Assembly: GCA_028275385.1 (NCBI GenBank)
Contig: JAPWUR010000003.1
Span: 1-36,989, forward strand
DNA: 36,989 nucleotides
From: Candidatus Bathyarchaeota archaeon
Lineage (GTDB): Archaea; Thermoproteota; Bathyarchaeia; 40CM-2-53-6; CALIRQ01
Reading direction: 5' to 3'
Shown here: positions 19,205-28,642 of the stretch, piece after piece
How positions within the stretch are numbered: the first letter of the stretch is position 1
Layout: every line of letters starts with the position of its first letter
The notes under the pieces: generated by a model
Seen by the model: only the letters and a program-made list of their open reading frames with translations
What the model was told of the DNA's origin: nothing
Database searches by the model: none
Translations under genes and position numbers: made by a program

Positions 19205-19615
19205 TTAAGTGGATATCGGGCCATAGCTAATTACCTTGGCCCTACCCTCCCGCTCCAATAGGGCCCTCAGCTCCTCGGGGTCCAGGGCGCATTTCGAAAC
19301 GTCCATTATGGCATGCCACTCGGCGGATTCCCCCCTCCTAAGGGTCCTGGATTGGCTCCAAAGCAGGTCCACGCCCTTTGAGGCCAATATCCCCGCGACG
19401 TTCGCGAGCGCCCCGGGCTCATCCCTGAGGCGGACCCTGAGCTCCGATAACTTCGCGCCGTGGTCGGCGAATGGCAATACCCTTATCTCCTTGGTCTTCG
19501 GCTCCGCGATCAATAGGAAGGACATCCCCTCGGCGAGCCCGAGCGTATTCCTTATGGACGAGGGCAGGAGGATCCTGCCCTTGGAATCCATCTTCACTAT
19601 CTCGGATACCCTCAT
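19205..19615 (-). CDS. AbrB/SpoVT-like DNA-binding domain fused to ACT domain; putative amino-acid-responsive regulator
   Basis: MRVSEIVKMDSKGRILLPSSIRNTLGLAEGMSFLL (swapped-hairpin AbrB) followed by ACT-like LSELRVRLRDEPGALANVAGILASKGVDLLWSQS. ORF opens at 19666; the TATA-like box at 19641-19648 supports leaderless ATG at 19615. Confidence 0.83.
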   Translation of the reverse strand: MRVSEIVKMDSKGRILLPSSIRNTLGLAEGMSFLLIAEPKTKEIRVLPFADHGAKLSELRVRLRDEPGALANVAGILASKGVDLLWSQSRTLRRGESAEWHAIMDVSKCALDPEELRALLEREGRAKVISYGPIST

Positions 19616-19651
19616 CCCCTTGCCGTTTTCGCGAGATATGTTTATAAATGT

Positions 19652-19681
19652 GAATATCGTGGGCAAAATCCCACAATATTC
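19652..19681. promoter_or_regulatory. 30-bp imperfect palindrome, putative operator for his operon / AbrB-ACT gene
   Basis: gaatatcgtggg-caaaat-cccacaatattc: 12-nt arms matching at 11 of 12 positions; overlaps the likely TATA region (acaatatt) about 26 bp upstream of hisZ start. Confidence 0.65.
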
Positions 19682-19701
19682 CCACGAAGGTCGGGCATTC
19701 G

Positions 19702-20955
19702 ATGCTCAGGACCCCCCTCGGGACCAGGGATTACGCCCTCGAGGAGGCGGAGGCCTATAGCCGCCTGGAGCGCGCGCTGGAGCGGACCTTCGAGCTTTGG
19801 GGCTATAGGGAGGTGCGAACCCCCTGCCTCGAGTCGCTCGAGGTGTTCTCGGGGACCATAGGCCCAGGCGCCGTGGATAGGGCGTTCAAGTTCCAGGATT
19901 ACGACGGGAGGCTCTTGGCTTTGAGGGCCGAGGGTACCGCCCCAACGGCGAGGCTCTTCGCCTCAACCCTAATAAACGCCCCCCGCCCCTGCAGGCTGTT
20001 CTATATCGCGAAGGTCTTCAGGTTCGCGACCGATTTCCCGGGGGACTTCAGGGAATTTTCCCAAGCCGGCGCGGAGCTGATAGGATCGGGGGAGCCATCC
20101 TCGGACGCGGAGGTCATGGCGCTCTCGATAGCCGCCCTGGAGGACCTGGGGCTCGGGGGAAGGGGCCTCAGGATCGATTTGGGGCACGCGAACCTGATGA
20201 GGGAGCTAATCTCCCGCCTCCTGGGCGGCCCGGATGGGGAGCGCGCCCTCGATCTGCTCAGGAGGAGGGATCTTAGGGGGGCGCTGAGCTTATTCAAGGG
20301 GAGGGGTTTGCCCCCCGAGGCCTACGATTCCATAGCGGGGCTCCTGAGATGCCGGAGGGCGGATGAGTTTTTGGCAATGGATATTCCCATCGCGGACGCG
20401 GGGATTCGCGAAATGCTGAAGGGCTTCGCTGGCGTAATAGAGGAGGCGGAGGAGTACGGCATAGGCGATAAGCTCTTCCTGGATTTCTCGCTCATAAGGG
20501 ATTTGGAATATTACACCGGGGCGATCTTCGAGATCTCGATGGAGGGGCTCGGGGTGCCGGTTGGCGGCGGGGGCAGATACGATGCCCTCATAGAGAAGTT
20601 CTGCGGGCTCAGGATCCCGGCCGTCGGCTTCGCCCTGAACCTGAATAGGCTCATGGAGGGCATGGGCGCGGGATCGCTCCGCGAGGATCGGCGCAAGAGG
20701 GTCATTATACGATCCAAGAATAGGCGCGAGGCAATCGAGATCGCGAGGGAGCTAAGGGGGAAGGGGATAATCGCGGTCGTTTCCCTTGAAAGGGATGATT
20801 CCCTCTCCAAGGGAGGTGAGCTCGAGGGGTTCGATTACCTAATCGTCCCGAGCGGGGATGGATCGCTGAGGATCGCGGATCTGAGGAGCGGGGCCGTCAA
20901 GGCATCGAGCTTGGAGGGGCTCTTGGCCGAGCTGGGGGGAGGGGGCTTTGAATAG
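19702..20955 (+). CDS. hisZ: ATP phosphoribosyltransferase regulatory subunit HisZ (HisRS-like)
   Basis: Class II HisRS-like fold (TPLGTRDY, RAEGTAPTARLFA, DLEYYTGAIFEI, GGGGRYDALIEKF) directly upstream of a short-form HisG in a his operon. Confidence 0.78.
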   Translation: MLRTPLGTRDYALEEAEAYSRLERALERTFELWGYREVRTPCLESLEVFSGTIGPGAVDRAFKFQDYDGRLLALRAEGTAPTARLFASTLINAPRPCRLFYIAKVFRFATDFPGDFREFSQAGAELIGSGEPSSDAEVMALSIAALEDLGLGGRGLRIDLGHANLMRELISRLLGGPDGERALDLLRRRDLRGALSLFKGRGLPPEAYDSIAGLLRCRRADEFLAMDIPIADAGIREMLKGFAGVIEEAEEYGIGDKLFLDFSLIRDLEYYTGAIFEISMEGLGVPVGGGGRYDALIEKFCGLRIPAVGFALNLNRLMEGMGAGSLREDRRKRVIIRSKNRREAIEIARELRGKGIIAVVSLERDDSLSKGGELEGFDYLIVPSGDGSLRIADLRSGAVKASSLEGLLAELGGGGFE

Positions 20956-20959
20956 GAGG

Positions 20960-21595
20960 ATGAGGTTGGCGATGCCGAGCAAGGGCAGGTTGCACGGCCC
21001 ATCGCTGGATCTCCTTCGCAGGGCCGGCATCGAGTTGCTCTCCGAGGGCAGATCGTATCTTTCGGAAACCTCGGATCCATCCCTCGAGGTGATCCTCGTG
21101 AGGGCCAAGGACGTGCCCCTGTACCTCCACTACGGCGCTGCCGATTTGGGCATAACGGGATACGACCTCATAGTGGAGAGGGGCGCCGATCTATACGAGC
21201 TGCTGAGCCTTCCATATGGCGAATGCAAGCTCGTGGTGGCCGCGCCTGAGGATTCCGATATACGATCCATCGAGGACGTCGAGCCGGGGAGCGTCGTCGC
21301 CACATCGCACCCTAGGATCGCGAGCAAATTCTTCGAGGGAATGAACAAGGACGTCGAGGTTTTGGAGCTCGAGGGCTCGGTGGAGCTCGCGCCGAGGCTC
21401 GGCCTCGCGGATCTGATAGTGGATATATCATCGAGCGGGGAGACCCTGAGGAGGAACGGTTTGAGGGCCATCTGCACCATTTTGGAATCGACGGCCAAGC
21501 TGGCTTGCAACAAGGTATCCTATAGGGCGTTCGAGGATCGCGTAGAGGGCCTAGTTAGGAGGATCGAGGGAGCCCTGGGGGAATGGGCGCCATGA
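20960..21595 (+). CDS. hisG: ATP phosphoribosyltransferase catalytic subunit, short form
   Basis: AMPSKGRLHGPSLDLLRRAGIEL..LVRAKDVPLYLHYGAADLGITGYDLIVE..LADLIVDISSSGETLRRNGL; about 211 aa with no C-terminal regulatory domain. Confidence 0.94.
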   Translation: MRLAMPSKGRLHGPSLDLLRRAGIELLSEGRSYLSETSDPSLEVILVRAKDVPLYLHYGAADLGITGYDLIVERGADLYELLSLPYGECKLVVAAPEDSDIRSIEDVEPGSVVATSHPRIASKFFEGMNKDVEVLELEGSVELAPRLGLADLIVDISSSGETLRRNGLRAICTILESTAKLACNKVSYRAFEDRVEGLVRRIEGALGEWAP

Positions 21596-22881
21596 GGGTG
21601 CTGCGCGGGAGGGGGGAGGGGGAGGCGTTCCTTAATAAGCTAAGGGATAGGAGGGGCGAGGAGTTCGAGAGGGCATCGAGGGTCGTCGAGAGGATAATAA
21701 GGGACGTCAGGAAGTTCGGGGATCGCGCGCTGAGGAAATATACCAAGAAGTACGACGGCGTCGCCATAGGAGGATTGAGGGTAAGCCCCGAGGAGCTGGA
21801 GCTTTCGATGAGGGGCTTGGGGGAGGATGGGATCCGGGCCCTGAGGATGGCTAAAGGGAATTTGGAGCGATTCCATGCGGCCCAGCTGAGAGGGGGTTTC
21901 TCGATCGAGATCGCGGAGGGCGCGGAGATCGGGCAGCTCCCCAGGCCCCTTGGCCGCGTCGGGGGATACGTCCCCGGCGGGAGGCGCCCATATCCATCCT
22001 CGCTGATGATGTGCGCGATCCCGGCTTTGGTGGCCGGCGTTAAGGAGGTCGCCATTTGTACGCCGCCAGGCGAGGAGGGGCGCGTTCACGGGGCCGTCCT
22101 GGCCGCGGCGGGGATATGCGGCGTCGGGGAGGTCTATAGGGTGGGCGGCGCCCAAGCGATAGCGGCCATGGCCTATGGGACGGAGAGCATCGAGAGGGTC
22201 GATAAGATAGTGGGCCCTGGGAACATTTACGTTACCATCGCGAAGCTCCTCGTAAGGGACGACGTAGCCGTGGATCTCCCGGCCGGGCCGAGCGAGATCG
22301 TCATAATAGCGGATTCATCGGCGAACCCGAGGTTCGTGGCCGCCGATCTATTGGCCCAAGCCGAGCACGGCCCGACCTCCCTGGCCATCGTGCTCACGGA
22401 TTCGAGGGACCTGGCGGAGGCCGTTGGGGAGGAGGTCGAAGGGGAATTGGCCTCTGCGGATCGCGTTGTCGCGGACGCCATAAAGGGGAATGGCGCCATA
22501 GTGATATTGGATGATATCGGGGAATGCGTTGGGCTCGCGAACGCCATAGCCCCGGAGCATTTGGAGATAATGGTCAGGAGGCCCGAGGCGCTTTTGGATT
22601 CGATCGAGAGCGCCGGCGCCGTATTCTTGGGCGAATATTCTCCGGTGGCCCTCGGGGATTATTCGGCGGGCCTCAACCACGTGTTGCCGACGCGCGGTTT
22701 CGCCAAATATTACTCGGGGCTTTCGAGCTGGGACTTCGTCAGGTGGTTGAACTACTTGAAGTGCTCCAGGGAGGGCTTCGAGAGGCTGTGCGGGGCGGCG
22801 ATCGAGCTGGCCGAGATCGAGGGCTTCGGGCATCATTCAAGGTCCCTCAGGGTCAGGCTGGGAAGGGGGAGGGCGGGATGA
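21592..22881 (+). CDS. hisD: histidinol dehydrogenase
   Basis: GRVGGYVPGGRRPYPSSLMMCAIPALVAGV, VDKIVGPGNIYVTIAK, GPSEIVIIAD, NHVLPTRGFAKYYSGLS. ATGA overlap with hisG. Confidence 0.96.
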   Translation: MRVLRGRGEGEAFLNKLRDRRGEEFERASRVVERIIRDVRKFGDRALRKYTKKYDGVAIGGLRVSPEELELSMRGLGEDGIRALRMAKGNLERFHAAQLRGGFSIEIAEGAEIGQLPRPLGRVGGYVPGGRRPYPSSLMMCAIPALVAGVKEVAICTPPGEEGRVHGAVLAAAGICGVGEVYRVGGAQAIAAMAYGTESIERVDKIVGPGNIYVTIAKLLVRDDVAVDLPAGPSEIVIIADSSANPRFVAADLLAQAEHGPTSLAIVLTDSRDLAEAVGEEVEGELASADRVVADAIKGNGAIVILDDIGECVGLANAIAPEHLEIMVRRPEALLDSIESAGAVFLGEYSPVALGDYSAGLNHVLPTRGFAKYYSGLSSWDFVRWLNYLKCSREGFERLCGAAIELAEIEGFGHHSRSLRVRLGRGRAG

Positions 22882-24056
22882 GGGAATTGGCTGGGATCGC
22901 TCTGCCGTATATTGCGGAGGGCTTCGACCCCTCCAACATACGAAGGATCGCCGTCGATTTCGACGGCGTCATATCGAGCGCGAGCAAACCCTTCTACGAG
23001 GCGATCTCCCAAGCCGTCGATCGATATTATAACGCCATATTGGGCCTCGAGGGCCAAGGGGGGCTCGTGAGCCATGGGGATATATCGGCCATGAAGGGCA
23101 CGGGGCTCTTCAACAACGATTGGGACCTGACGCGCATCCTCATAGCCTACTACCTCGCCCTGGCCTATAGGGAGCTGGAGGGGAGGGGGGCAGCCGAGGG
23201 ATTCCTCCTCAGGCTCGGTAGGGGCTCGCCGGGGGATCCGATCGGCTGGCTCAAGGGCCTTGGGGGATATATGCGCTCCGAGGGCATAGATTTGGGGGGC
23301 TTGGCCGAGGCCAAGAGGGAGTTCCCGATAGGGGCCCTCGCCTCCAAGCTCGGGGCCGGGGGGCTCGGCGGGGAGGGTGCCATAGATGGGGTCGTAGGGT
23401 TCGTAATGCCGAGGGGGGGAGGGGAATTGGCGCGCGCGTTGAGGCGCCTCGTCGGATTCGATGCGGAGGGGATCGATCTCGTAAGGGAGCTGTTCGAGGA
23501 GATATATTTGGGCCCAAGCCTCTACCGGAGGTTCTACGGCAGGGAGCCCCCGATCGGCTTGGGAGGGGGGCGTGAAGGGCTGATGGCATTGGAGCGCCCC
23601 CTCCCAAGCAAGGAGGCCCTGAGGAGGCTCTCCGATGCCTTCGGGAGGTTGGGCATATATTCCGAGCGCCCCAGGGCGCAGGCCGAATACTTGCTGGAGA
23701 ATTGGGGGCTCTCGGACGCGTTCGACCTCTCGAGCTCCGCCTTCGTGGAGGATATCGCGAATTGCGCCTCCTTGGCGGGCGCCCCCCGCTCGGCCATGGG
23801 GAAGCCCAATCCGCGGCCCTTCCTGAAATTCCTGGAATCATTCAGCGGGGACCTCGATGCCATATACGTCGGGGATTCCCCATCCGATCTCCACCTGGTT
23901 TCGAACGCGAGAGCGATGGGGCGCGAGGGCATATCGTTCGCGGGGGTCCTGAGCGACTGCGAGGATCCGGGGGGTACTGCCCGCGCCTTCCGGAGGGGAG
24001 GGGCCTCGGCCATAATGTGGGATCTGAACCAATTGCCGGAGGTGCTGGGCGTTTGA
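22879..24056 (+). CDS. HAD-superfamily phosphatase within his operon; candidate histidinol-phosphate phosphatase
   Basis: HAD motif I IAVDFDGVISSASKPFYEAI, motif III KPNPRPF, motif IV YVGDSPSDLHL; ATGA overlap with hisD and overlap with hisB start. Confidence 0.75.
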
Positions 24057-24643
24057 GCGGGGAAAGGGCCCGCAGGGCCAAGATAGAAAGGAGGACCTTG
24101 GAAGTGAGCATAAGCGGGGATCTCGATATAGACGGCTCCGGGAGGGCCAAGGTTTCTACGGGCATACCCTTCTTCGATCACATGCTCAGCACCCTAGCCA
24201 AGCACGCCCTCTTCGATTTGGAGCTGACCGCCAAGGGGGACTTGGAGCACCATTTGATAGAGGAGGTGGGCATAGCCCTGGGGTCGGCGATAGACGCCGC
24301 CCTCGGGGATAGGAGGGGGATAAGGAGGTTCGGCTCCGCCCTGATCCCGATGGATGAATCGCTCGCGAGCGCAGCGGTCGATCTGAGCGGAAGGGGCTTC
24401 GCGCGATTGAGCTTGGGGCTCCGCGATTCTGTGGAGGGCTTCAGGGCGGAGTGGCTCGAGCATTTCCTAAGATCCCTCGCGATGTCCTCGCGGGCGACGA
24501 TCCACGTGAACCTGGTCTATGGGAGCGATGAGCATCACAAAGCCGAGTCCTCCATCAAGGCCCTCGCCAGAGCCCTGAGGGATGCCGTTAGCATGGATTG
24601 GAGGATCCCGGGGGAGATCCCGAGCGTGAAGGGGGGATTATGA
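24053..24643 (+). CDS. hisB: imidazoleglycerol-phosphate dehydratase
   Basis: TGIPFFDHMLSTLAKHALFDL, DLEHHLIEEVGIALGSA, GSDEHHKAESSIKALARAL. TTG start at 24053 overlaps the HAD stop. Confidence 0.94.
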   Translation: MSGERARRAKIERRTLEVSISGDLDIDGSGRAKVSTGIPFFDHMLSTLAKHALFDLELTAKGDLEHHLIEEVGIALGSAIDAALGDRRGIRRFGSALIPMDESLASAAVDLSGRGFARLSLGLRDSVEGFRAEWLEHFLRSLAMSSRATIHVNLVYGSDEHHKAESSIKALARALRDAVSMDWRIPGEIPSVKGGL

Positions 24644-25252
24644 ATGCCGACGATACTCGTGGCGAACTACGGCGTTGGCAACCTCAGGAGCCTGAGGAGG
24701 GGATTGGAGCGGGCCGGGGCGCGCGCCGCCATAGGATTGGGGCCCGAGGAGCTCGAGGCCGCGGATGGCATCGTCCTGCCAGGGGTCGGGGCCTTCCGGG
24801 CCGCGATGGAGGGGCTGGGCGCCATAAGGGAGGCGCTCATGGAGCAAGTGGAGGCGGGGAAGCCGCTCCTCGGGATCTGCCTCGGGATGCAACTCCTCCT
24901 ATCCAAGAGCTACGAGAACGGCGTTTGGGATGGGCTCGGCCTAGTGAGGGGGGAGGCCACGAAGCTGCCGGGATCCGTGAAATTGCCCCACATGGGATGG
25001 GACGAGGTCATCATAACCAGGGATTCGGAGATAGCGGAGGGCATCCCGAGCGGGGCCCTCATGTATTTCGCGCATTCCTATGCCCCGGAGCTATCGGATG
25101 GTTCGGTGGAGGTCGCCCATACCGATTACGGGAGGAAGTTCGCTTCCATAATAGAGCGCGGGAACATATTCGGAACGCAATTCCATCCGGAGAAGAGCGG
25201 GGGGCCCGGGATAGGGCTCCTGAGGAACTTCGTATCCATCGTGAAAAGGTGA
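24644..25252 (+). CDS. hisH: imidazole glycerol phosphate synthase subunit HisH
   Basis: Class I glutamine amidotransferase: VANYGVGNLRSL, LGICLGMQLLLSKSYENG, FGTQFHPEKSG. Confidence 0.95.
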   Translation: MPTILVANYGVGNLRSLRRGLERAGARAAIGLGPEELEAADGIVLPGVGAFRAAMEGLGAIREALMEQVEAGKPLLGICLGMQLLLSKSYENGVWDGLGLVRGEATKLPGSVKLPHMGWDEVIITRDSEIAEGIPSGALMYFAHSYAPELSDGSVEVAHTDYGRKFASIIERGNIFGTQFHPEKSGGPGIGLLRNFVSIVKR

Positions 25253-25259
25253 TGGCGGG

Positions 25260-25976
25260 TTGTACATCATACCGGCGGTGGATATAATGGGGGGCAAATG
25301 CGTTAGGCTCCTGCGCGGAGCCCCGGATGCGAGGATCGAGTATTACGAGGATCCAGTCGAGGCCGCTAAGCTTTGGGAAGCCATGGGGGCGGAATGGATC
25401 CACGTCGTGGACTTGGATAGGGCCATGGGGACCGGGGATAACCGCGATGTGGTATACGCCATACTCCGGGAGGTCGATTCCAAGGTCCAAGTCGGAGGGG
25501 GGATAAGGAGCCTGGAGGAGGCGGGCGAGATGCTAGATAGGGGGGCCTCCAGGGTGGTGGTTGGGACGAGGGCCATCAGGGATCCGGATTTCCTGCCGAG
25601 CCTGGCGAGGGCCTTTGGGAGCGAGAGGATCGCGGTTGCGATCGATGTGAAGGGAGGGGGGATCGCCATCGAGGGCTGGAGGAAGGTCGCGGGGTTGGAT
25701 CCCTTGGCTTTCGCGAGCAGCCTCAGGGGCGCTGGATTCCTCGTGCTAACGCTCGCGGATCACGATGGAACCCTCAGGACGCCCGCCTTGGGGATCGTTG
25801 AGGAGGTCAAGAGGGTCGCCCCGATGCCCCTGATAGTCGGGGGCGGGGTGAGCGATCTCGAGGGCCTGAGGGCCTTGGCGAGGATGGGGGTTTGGGGGGT
25901 GATAATCGGGAGGGCCCTTTACGAGGGCGTATTGGATTTCAAAGCCGCGGTGGAGGCGATCGCCGATGTTGGCTAA
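25260..25976 (+). CDS. hisA: phosphoribosylformimino-5-aminoimidazole carboxamide ribotide isomerase
   Basis: [61 protein letters not shown]. Confidence 0.95.
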
Positions 25977-26736
25977 GAGGATAATACCGTGCTTGGATGT
26001 CAAGGACGGGAAGGTCGTGAAGGGCGTGAAATTCGAGAACCTGAGGGTCGAGGGCGACCCGGTCGAGCTCGCCTCGTATTATGAGGAATCGATGGCCGAC
26101 GAGCTGGTATTCCTCGATATAACGGCATCGAAGGAGAAGAGAAAGATATTGATCGATGTCGTAGAAAAGGTCGCCGATGTGCTGACGATACCCTTCACGG
26201 TCGGAGGGGGGATAGGCGACCTTGGGATGATACAGGAGCTTTTGTGCGCCGGGGCCGATAAGGTATCGTTGAATACCGCAGCCGTGAGGGACCCGGAGCT
26301 CATCAGGGTGGCATCGGATCGATTCGGGAGCCAATGCATAGTTATAGCCATAGATGCGAAAAGGGCCTGGGGGGCCCCGGGGCGCCCCCGATGGGAGGTC
26401 TATATCGAGGGCGGATCCAAGGGGACCGGCCTTGACGCGATCGAATGGGCCAAGAGGGCCGAGGGCCTCGGGGCGGGGGAGATACTCCTCACTAGCATGG
26501 ATAAGGATGGAACCCAAGAGGGCTACGATATAGAGCTGACCCGGGCGATTTGCGAAGCGGTGAACTTGCCCGTCATAGCGAGCGGCGGGGCCGGGGCGCC
26601 GGAGCACATCCTAGAGGTCTTCGAAAGGGGGCTGGCGGATGCCGCTTTGGCGGCTTCGATCTTCCATAGGAATATACATCCGATAATGGAGGTCAAGAGG
26701 TTCTTGGCATCGAGGGGGATCCCGGTGAGGATGTGA
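25966..26736 (+). CDS. hisF: imidazole glycerol phosphate synthase subunit HisF
   Basis: [80 protein letters not shown]. Confidence 0.96.
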
Positions 26737-26737
26737 A

Positions 26738-27397
26738 ATGGGCGGCGGGAAGGGCGGGATCGAGGACTTGATCGAAAGAGTGGATTTCGAGAAGATGGGC
26801 GGATTGGTGCCAGTCGTGGTGCAGGACTTCGATACCGGGGAGGTCCTCATGCAGGCCTTCATGAACAAGGAGGCCCTCAAGTTGACCCTAGAGACGGGAT
26901 TGATGCATTATTGGAGCAGGACCAGGGGGAGGATATGGATGAAGGGCGAGGAGAGCGGGCATACGCAATCCGTGATTAGCGCGAGATTGGATTGTGATGG
27001 CGATGCGATATTATTCGCGGTGAGGCAAAAGGGCGTTTGTTGCCACACAGGCGAGGGCAGCTGCTTCCATAGGCCCCTCCTTGATGGCCCAGCGGGCGTG
27101 GGCGCGAAGATCCTCGGGGAAGTATTCCAAGTCATAAAGGGGAGGATCGAGGCGCCGCGGCCCGGCTCCTACGTATCCGGCTTGGCCTCAAAGGGGGAGA
27201 ACGCGATATTGAAGAAGCTCGGGGAGGAGGCGGCCGAGTTGGTGATAGCGGCCAAAGAGGGCGAGGGGATTATTCACGAGGCCGCGGATCTCCTATTCCA
27301 CTTGATGGTCCTCCTGGCCTTCAAGGGGGTGGGGCTGGAGGGCGTTTACGCCGAGCTTGAGAGGAGGCGAAGGGGGCGAAGGGCCGAGGGCCCTTGA
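26738..27397 (+). CDS. hisIE: bifunctional phosphoribosyl-AMP cyclohydrolase / phosphoribosyl-ATP pyrophosphatase
   Basis: HisI half: GLVPVVVQDFDTGEVLMQAFMNKEAL..HYWSRTRGRIWMKGEESGHTQ..CCHTGEGSCFHR. HisE half: YVSGLASKGENAILKKLGEEAAELVIAAKEG..IIHEAADLLFHLMVLL. Confidence 0.94.
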   Translation: MGGGKGGIEDLIERVDFEKMGGLVPVVVQDFDTGEVLMQAFMNKEALKLTLETGLMHYWSRTRGRIWMKGEESGHTQSVISARLDCDGDAILFAVRQKGVCCHTGEGSCFHRPLLDGPAGVGAKILGEVFQVIKGRIEAPRPGSYVSGLASKGENAILKKLGEEAAELVIAAKEGEGIIHEAADLLFHLMVLLAFKGVGLEGVYAELERRRRGRRAEGP

Positions 27398-27493
27398 CCT
27401 GCCCCGCTCGGGTTGGGTCGATCCCCCATCCAACGGTATCCCTGTTCCACTTGGAAACTTTATAATCCCGCCCGGGAATATTTTGCCATCGCA

Positions 27494-27877
27494 ATGGAAG
27501 CGAAGGGCGCGGCGAGCGCGTTGGGCGATGAGGACGCCGTGATCGGCTTGCTCAAGAAGATAAACGAGAACCTGGAGGAACTCAATAGGAAGCTTGATGC
27601 CATGATAAAGATGCAGGAATCGTCGAAGCCCATCGCCAAGGCCATAACATCGGGGGAGATGCCCCTGGATGTGGATACGCTCCTATCCCTGCCGGATCAT
27701 CTGAGGAAGACGGCCTTGGCCATATGCGCCCTGGGCGAGGCGACCGCCACGCAGGTGGCCGCCGAAACCTCCAGGGCCAGGGCGGCCGAGAGCGATTACC
27801 TAAACCAGCTCGTCTCGCTCGGCCTCCTGAAGAAGAAGAGGAAGGGCAGGGATGTTTACTTCTACATCGAGAGGTGA
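27494..27877 (+). CDS. small winged-helix-like DNA-binding protein with N-terminal coiled coil
   Basis: EEDLNRKLDAM-type coiled-coil N-terminus (INENLEELNRKLDAMIKMQ) then HTH-like LRKTALAICALGEATATQVAAETSRARAAESDYLNQLVSLGLLKKKRKGRDVYFYIER; TATA-like actttataat near 27457-27466. Confidence 0.72.
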   Translation: MEAKGAASALGDEDAVIGLLKKINENLEELNRKLDAMIKMQESSKPIAKAITSGEMPLDVDTLLSLPDHLRKTALAICALGEATATQVAAETSRARAAESDYLNQLVSLGLLKKKRKGRDVYFYIER

Positions 27878-28642
27878 ATGGCCACGAAGGCCATATCGTT
27901 CCACTCCTACAAGGGCGGGACCGGGAAGACCTCGATAGCGGCCAACTTGGCGGCCATATACGCCCGCCTCGGGCACAGGGTCTGCCTCCTCGATTACGAT
28001 TTCAGGGCCCCGAGCCTGAGCGTCCTCTTCAAGCCCAATCCCAAGTTTTGGTTGAACGATTACCTGAACGGCCGATGCGAGGTGGAGGAGGCGCTCGTGG
28101 ACGTGGGGAAGGGGCTGGGCCTCGAGGGGGCGATCTTCGCCGGATTCGCCGATCCGAGCACGAGGGCCATAAGGGATATGATGACCAAGGATAGGGCTTG
28201 GGAGATGGGAGCCCTCCACAGGACCCTCTCGGCCAAGAGGGCCATACAAAGATCCCTCGGGGCGGATTATTTGATATTCGATACGAGCCCGGGCATACAT
28301 TATTCATCCGTCAACGCCCTGGCCAGCTCGGACGCCATAGCCCTCGTCATGAAGGGCGACGATTTCGACATGGAGGGGACCAAGGAGATGGTGCGCGGCA
28401 TATACGACGTGCTTGGGAGGAAGGCCGGGATAATCATGAATAAGATACCGATGGGCTTTGTCGAGGGAGGGGGGATCGTCAAGGGGGTCGAGGAGGAGCT
28501 CAATATACCGGTGCTGGGGGTGATCCCTTGCTATTGCGAGTTGATGGCCATCGGGGGCCGGTCGATTTACGCGCTCGATCGCCCAGATCACCCGTTCTCC
28601 AAGGCCCTCGAGGACCTATCCAAGAGGATCGCCGGGATGTGA
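27878..28642 (+). CDS. ParA/MinD-family ATPase
   Basis: Deviant Walker A SYKGGTGKTSIAANLA, RVCLLDYDFRAPSL, DYLIFDTSPGIHYSS; starts directly after the preceding stop codon. Confidence 0.88.
   Translation: MATKAISFHSYKGGTGKTSIAANLAAIYARLGHRVCLLDYDFRAPSLSVLFKPNPKFWLNDYLNGRCEVEEALVDVGKGLGLEGAIFAGFADPSTRAIRDMMTKDRAWEMGALHRTLSAKRAIQRSLGADYLIFDTSPGIHYSSVNALASSDAIALVMKGDDFDMEGTKEMVRGIYDVLGRKAGIIMNKIPMGFVEGGGIVKGVEEELNIPVLGVIPCYCELMAIGGRSIYALDRPDHPFSKALEDLSKRIAGM

Follow-up and report, generated by a model that had tools for sequence, protein, structure and literature searches.

A candidate AbrB–ACT repressor of histidine biosynthesis in archaea and its conserved four-box array

Which protein controls histidine biosynthesis in archaea, and from which site, is the question raised by a small gene that lies divergently next to a his operon in a 36,989-nucleotide stretch of DNA from a Candidatus Bathyarchaeota archaeon (contig JAPWUR010000003.1 of assembly GCA_028275385.1), which is referred to here as the window. 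Our search of the open literature, outside which most subscription journals lie, yielded no described regulator of archaeal histidine biosynthesis and nothing relevant that joins an AbrB and an ACT domain with archaea or with histidine biosynthesis. The first-pass annotation, made from the letters of the window, had proposed a regulator composed of these two domains that acts from a palindromic operator as an autoregulated, amino-acid-responsive switch. Comparison with relatives leads us to consider it likely that the protein is a dedicated repressor of histidine biosynthesis, bound to an array of short boxes over the his promoter and probably responsive to histidine.

The gene order on which that proposal was built is confirmed: the regulator gene is divergent from a nine-gene operon with the order hisZ, hisG, hisD, a gene for a HAD-type protein, hisB, hisH, hisA, hisF and hisIE (Table 1), in which the his genes downstream of the HAD protein were identified by their translations. 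The match of hisZ to TIGR00443 (E=4e-76) lies slightly below the curated cut-off. The HAD-type protein (22833–24056), which has a weak match to TIGR01548 below the cut-off and precedes hisB in the his operons of several genera, is a candidate enzyme for the histidinol-phosphatase step. We saw no hisC in the his operon of the window; in relatives, a hisC-like aminotransferase gene (for example orf10 of locus L125) is found upstream of the HAD gene. The same strand continues after hisIE (27413–28642) with genes for a protein that weakly matches the ArsR type and for a ParA/MinD-like ATPase, as is likewise the case in locus L002.

Table 1. Features of the regulator gene, the intergenic array and the his operon in the window.
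Feature	Position	Strand	Description
AbrB–ACT regulator gene	19205..19615	-	136 aa; ATG start at 19615; orthologues in relatives
Putative TATA box, TTTATAAA	19641..19648		self-complementary; a TATA-like box precedes the array in most his-linked relatives
Box 1, ATGTG	19648..19652	-	degenerate GTGGG; position conserved in the class, 11-bp period
Inverted repeat, 30 bp, core of the array	19652..19681		GAATATCGTGGG-CAAAAT-CCCACAATATTC
Box 2, GTGGG	19659..19663	-	four-box array comparison
Box 3, CCCAC	19670..19674	+	forms a direct repeat with box 4 that is exact in 14 of 17 genera
Box 4, CCCAC	19681..19685	+	direct repeat and array comparison
hisZ, ATP phosphoribosyltransferase regulatory subunit	19702..20955	+	first gene of the operon; Pfam tRNA-synt_His, TIGR00443
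hisG, short form	20960..21595	+	Pfam HisG, TIGR00070
hisD, HAD protein, hisB, hisH, hisA, hisF, hisIE	21583..27397	+	translations, HAD families, genes of relatives

Both domains proposed for the regulator are borne out by profile searches. The ACT domain, spanning residues 58–123, is matched by PF01842 above the Pfam cut-off (E=3.8e-7) and the AbrB-type head by TIGR01439 at its cut-off (E=1.1e-6); among 61 homologues, TIGR01439 is matched by all and an ACT domain of the PF01842 type was detected in 54. The head of a profile of these homologues leads to AbrB and SpoVT structures (PDB sequence matches 2ro5, 2w1t and 1z0r), its tail to the ACT-bearing enzymes aspartokinase and prephenate dehydratase. 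The ACT fold is present in an AlphaFold2 model of the regulator (mean pLDDT 92.8), for which the leading PDB fold matches are mostly ACT-domain proteins. Residues D65 and G68 are conserved in 61/61 homologues, as would fit ligand binding by the ACT domain. An alternative, longer reading frame of the regulator with a TTG start runs from 19666; its start would fall within the inverted repeat.

The 30-bp palindrome reported between the regulator and hisZ is real, with arms that pair at 11 of 12 positions where 0 such repeats are expected from 100 shuffles, and a search of the 1.16-Mb genome that allowed up to three mismatches revealed no second copy. The conserved unit, however, is a 38-bp array of four 5-bp boxes at an 11-bp period (GTGGG-N6-GTGGG-N6-CCCAC-N6-CCCAC, 19648–19685). 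The palindrome forms the core of this array, omitting four bases of box 4 and covering only the first. G006/G011, G008 and G309 have just one of the two halves of the array, namely the direct repeat. The operator assigned to the divergent promoter is therefore upheld as a conserved array but not as a palindrome as such, and the palindrome was rejected as the minimal operator because G006, G011 and G008 carry the direct repeat alone.

The promoter elements have to be reassigned. The sequence acaatatt, formerly taken for the TATA box of hisZ, lies between two boxes as a spacer, for which relatives have AAATTT, TTTTTT, AATTTG and so on; it is not kept as a TATA box and was rejected as such, TTTATA-like boxes before the array being conserved instead. 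The box previously given to the regulator, TTTATAAA, most likely serves the his operon, judging from its counterparts in relatives, and is possibly common to both divergent promoters. Its distance predicts a his transcription start at about 19670. In most his-linked loci, the TATA-like box starts 7–14 bp ahead of the array, placing the right half of the array at the expected transcription start.

Of 257 genomes of the archaeal class, 23 encode a close orthologue of the regulator, and homologues are spread over many families of the phylum. An AbrB–ACT gene divergent from his genes was found in 11 families of archaea (f1, f2, f5, f7, f8, f9 and f20 of the class, and f32, f33, f46 and f50 outside it). 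The first his gene opposite the regulator varies between hisZ, hisG, hisA and a gene for a hisC-like aminotransferase, and the regulator is found with the short HisG and HisZ and also with a long HisG without HisZ. Most relatives with the same gene order keep the array or half of it; the lack of conservation that the first-pass annotation had named as a refutation did not occur. An exact CCCAC-N6-CCCAC (or GTGGG-N6-GTGGG) is present in the intergenic regions of 14 of 17 genera, where shuffles that preserve dinucleotides give an expectation of 0.004, and no direct spacing of CCCAC/GTGGG other than N6 was found in the intergenic regions of these 17 genera. The four-box model, which is fitted by a period of 11 alone, gives 16–19 matches out of 20 in most class members (shuffles: mean 9.7, sd 1.1, largest 15, n=5,400); as the boxes were picked after some of the sequences had been seen, this array score is descriptive and the genome-wide tests are more independent.

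In these tests, the pattern TCCCACAAWNTNCCCAC with one mismatch allowed is found roughly once in each regulator-bearing genome, at his, and produced six one-mismatch matches in 28 genomes without a close orthologue, as in a reversed-pattern control. A wider regulon was rejected on the grounds that the strong pattern is found almost only at his and that other matches appear at about the frequency of the control. The exact pattern lies near hisG, on the hisG contig, in 21 of the 23 regulator-bearing class genomes, and in the remaining pair, G040 and G104, one base of the site is changed (CCCAT); the exact pattern is found on the hisG contig in 0 of 101 HisG-bearing class genomes without the regulator. 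This association (Fisher p = 8e-22, a value that ignores shared ancestry) supports a tie of the regulator to histidine biosynthesis, as the first-pass annotation had supposed. As the class regulator accompanies one kind of HisG, the regulator may be passed on jointly with the site and the operon. Their linkage is broken, on the other hand, in G055 and G063, where an inserted gene separates the regulator from the operon and the array stays before hisG, not before the regulator, and in five genomes in which the regulator is unlinked and the repeat is still found upstream of the his genes (G274, G369, G379, G349 and G276), so that co-occurrence is seen in cis as well as in trans. The site was not found in several genomes that encode both a regulator homologue and hisG. 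HisG proteins of the class are of two kinds: one is linked to the regulator, and the other, of about 335 residues and matched over a longer span, occurs in genomes that lack the regulator; G059 encodes both.

Many regulator homologues belong to genomes without detectable HisG. In family f47 (loci L084, L085 and L076), the regulator is divergent from the genes of an ABC transporter (family-3 solute-binding protein, at 1919–2755 in L084, permease and ATPase), and CCCAC-N4-GTGGG stands between the two in three species, with GGAA, AAAG and GAAA as N4; no HisG was detected in G442 and G422, the two of the three species that were checked. The transporter is probably of the polar amino-acid type, its nearest named families being the lysine/arginine/ornithine, arginine, cystine and glutamine systems, none of which it matches above the cut-off. 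Such an arrangement is in keeping with an amino acid as the signal, one that the cell must either synthesise or take up. Across the non-his-linked loci, GTGGG and TGGGA are the 5-mers found most widely upstream of the regulator, GTGGG being present at 12 of 33 loci compared to 1.8 in shuffles, which would agree with autoregulation and with a word recognised across the family. Together with the position of the array just upstream of the regulator promoter, this enrichment makes the autoregulation suggested earlier probable.

A further signature lies in the ACT domain. Ser89 and Trp100 are present in 28/28 his-linked and 5/5 trans-site regulators, and the f47 regulators likewise have Ser and Trp at these positions. 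A well-supported sister clade of the tree, comprising 26 homologues from other lineages, features Cys89 and Cys100 in every member, and no site at his was found for any of the 26. From this distribution we infer that Ser89/Trp100 marks his-type function and is a candidate specificity pocket, and that the signal of the sister clade possibly differs from that of the his-type regulators. The neighbours at the sister-clade loci (L086–L115), named from translations, include genes for PCNA and an Mrp-like ATPase as well as valS/ileS- or metG-like genes, with no clear common theme among them. Taken together, the transporter-linked f47 regulators and the Ser89/Trp100 signature make a histidine or basic amino-acid signal more likely.

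The mechanism that we propose would start from dimers formed by the AbrB-type head, each dimer reading one GTGGG box. With a period of 11 bp, adjacent dimers would lie on one face of the helix, where ACT–ACT contacts could join them into a larger assembly across the 38-bp array. Occupancy of the array would cover the region from the his TATA box to beyond the start site and block initiation, while the same assembly, located just upstream of the regulator's own promoter, would bring about autoregulation. The ACT domain would sense an amino acid, most likely L-histidine, acting as co-repressor.

The same protein and operator might answer to a ligand other than histidine, such as another amino acid, a pathway intermediate (for example one linked to PRPP or AICAR) or a signal of amino-acid supply in general. 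In favour of this are the many ligands of ACT domains, the likeness of the f47 transporter to systems for several amino acids and the presence of homologues where HisG is missing; the confinement of the strong site almost entirely to his nevertheless makes the end product of the pathway the economical signal, and we regard a different ligand as possible but doubtful. The direction of control is suggested by the array following the TATA box, which points to repression. In families f30 and f54, the repeat is located just upstream of the TATA-like box and not after it, a common place for archaeal activators, so that activation is possible there; as a general account of the locus, activation of his or switching between activation and repression is rather unlikely, since in nearly all his-linked genomes the array follows the TATA box and overlies the predicted start, a position that would block initiation.

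Neighbourhood and promoter can be co-inherited, and the boxes could on this account be bound by another protein that the AbrB–ACT gene merely adjoins. We consider this improbable in view of the site being kept in five genomes whose regulator is unlinked and missing from the 101 HisG genomes without the regulator, of the GTGGG enrichment upstream of non-his-linked regulators and of the boxes at the f47 transporter adjoining the regulator. That the inverted repeat serves, within the leader RNA of his, as a riboswitch or an attenuator is scarcely credible: it does lie near the start codon, but its left arm is upstream of the predicted transcription start, and many relatives have a direct repeat, which is unable to pair. 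The RNA element was rejected, as Rfam gave no credible match for the inverted repeat.

Repression of his by the array-bound regulator is thus the reading we prefer. It makes the protein a concrete candidate for archaeal his control, with an exact operator, a promoter geometry and predictions at the level of single residues. With middling confidence, we go further and propose an undescribed class of archaeal repressors that combines an AbrB head with a histidine-sensing ACT domain, uses a dyad-symmetric four-box array of 11-bp period, is dedicated to his across many families, was retargeted to a transporter in the absence of hisG, and has a Cys89/Cys100 sister form that responds to a different signal, perhaps redox or metal.

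The same AbrB and ACT make-up is represented by PRK08577/NF006352, an NCBIfam 'hypothetical protein' family without assigned function, target or operator, which matches all 61 homologues over their full length; the window regulator matches it at full length with E=1.9e-39 and 134.8 bits, the curated cut-off being 140. Our reading would give a function to part of this large family. A dedicated his repressor has been described in Gram-positive bacteria, the TrpR-like HisR (PMC9413887); its fold is unrelated, the archaeal regulator having an AbrB head and an ACT domain. MraZ, the bacterial repressor of the dcw operon, was reported to repress its own operon via GTG-containing direct repeats (PMC7761207, PMC8475190). 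The two heads are related (Pfam MraZ, E=2.3e-4), although the match is confined to the head and, at 21.5 bits, stays below the family cut-off of 23. The GTGGG-N6-GTGGG arrays are likewise direct repeats containing GTG, and repression by MraZ from such repeats indicates that a head of this type can work in this manner. The resemblance is one of working only: MraZ lacks an ACT domain, its targets are bacterial cell-division genes, and its repeats have a different period, with 7-nt repeats and 3-nt spacers in Burkholderia compared to the 11 bp of the array. SpoVT and AbrB share the AbrB-type head, and SpoVT also joins it to a C-terminal sensor domain; this sensor is a GAF domain, however, and SpoVT is a bacterial sporulation regulator. 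NikR, which is among the fold matches of the regulator model, and Lrp/AsnC proteins combine a DNA-binding head with an ACT or ACT-like sensor as the regulator does, but their heads are of the ribbon-helix-helix or helix-turn-helix type rather than AbrB. The known kind to which the protein belongs is that of a DNA-binding head coupled to an ACT sensor, and the regulator is a variant thereof.
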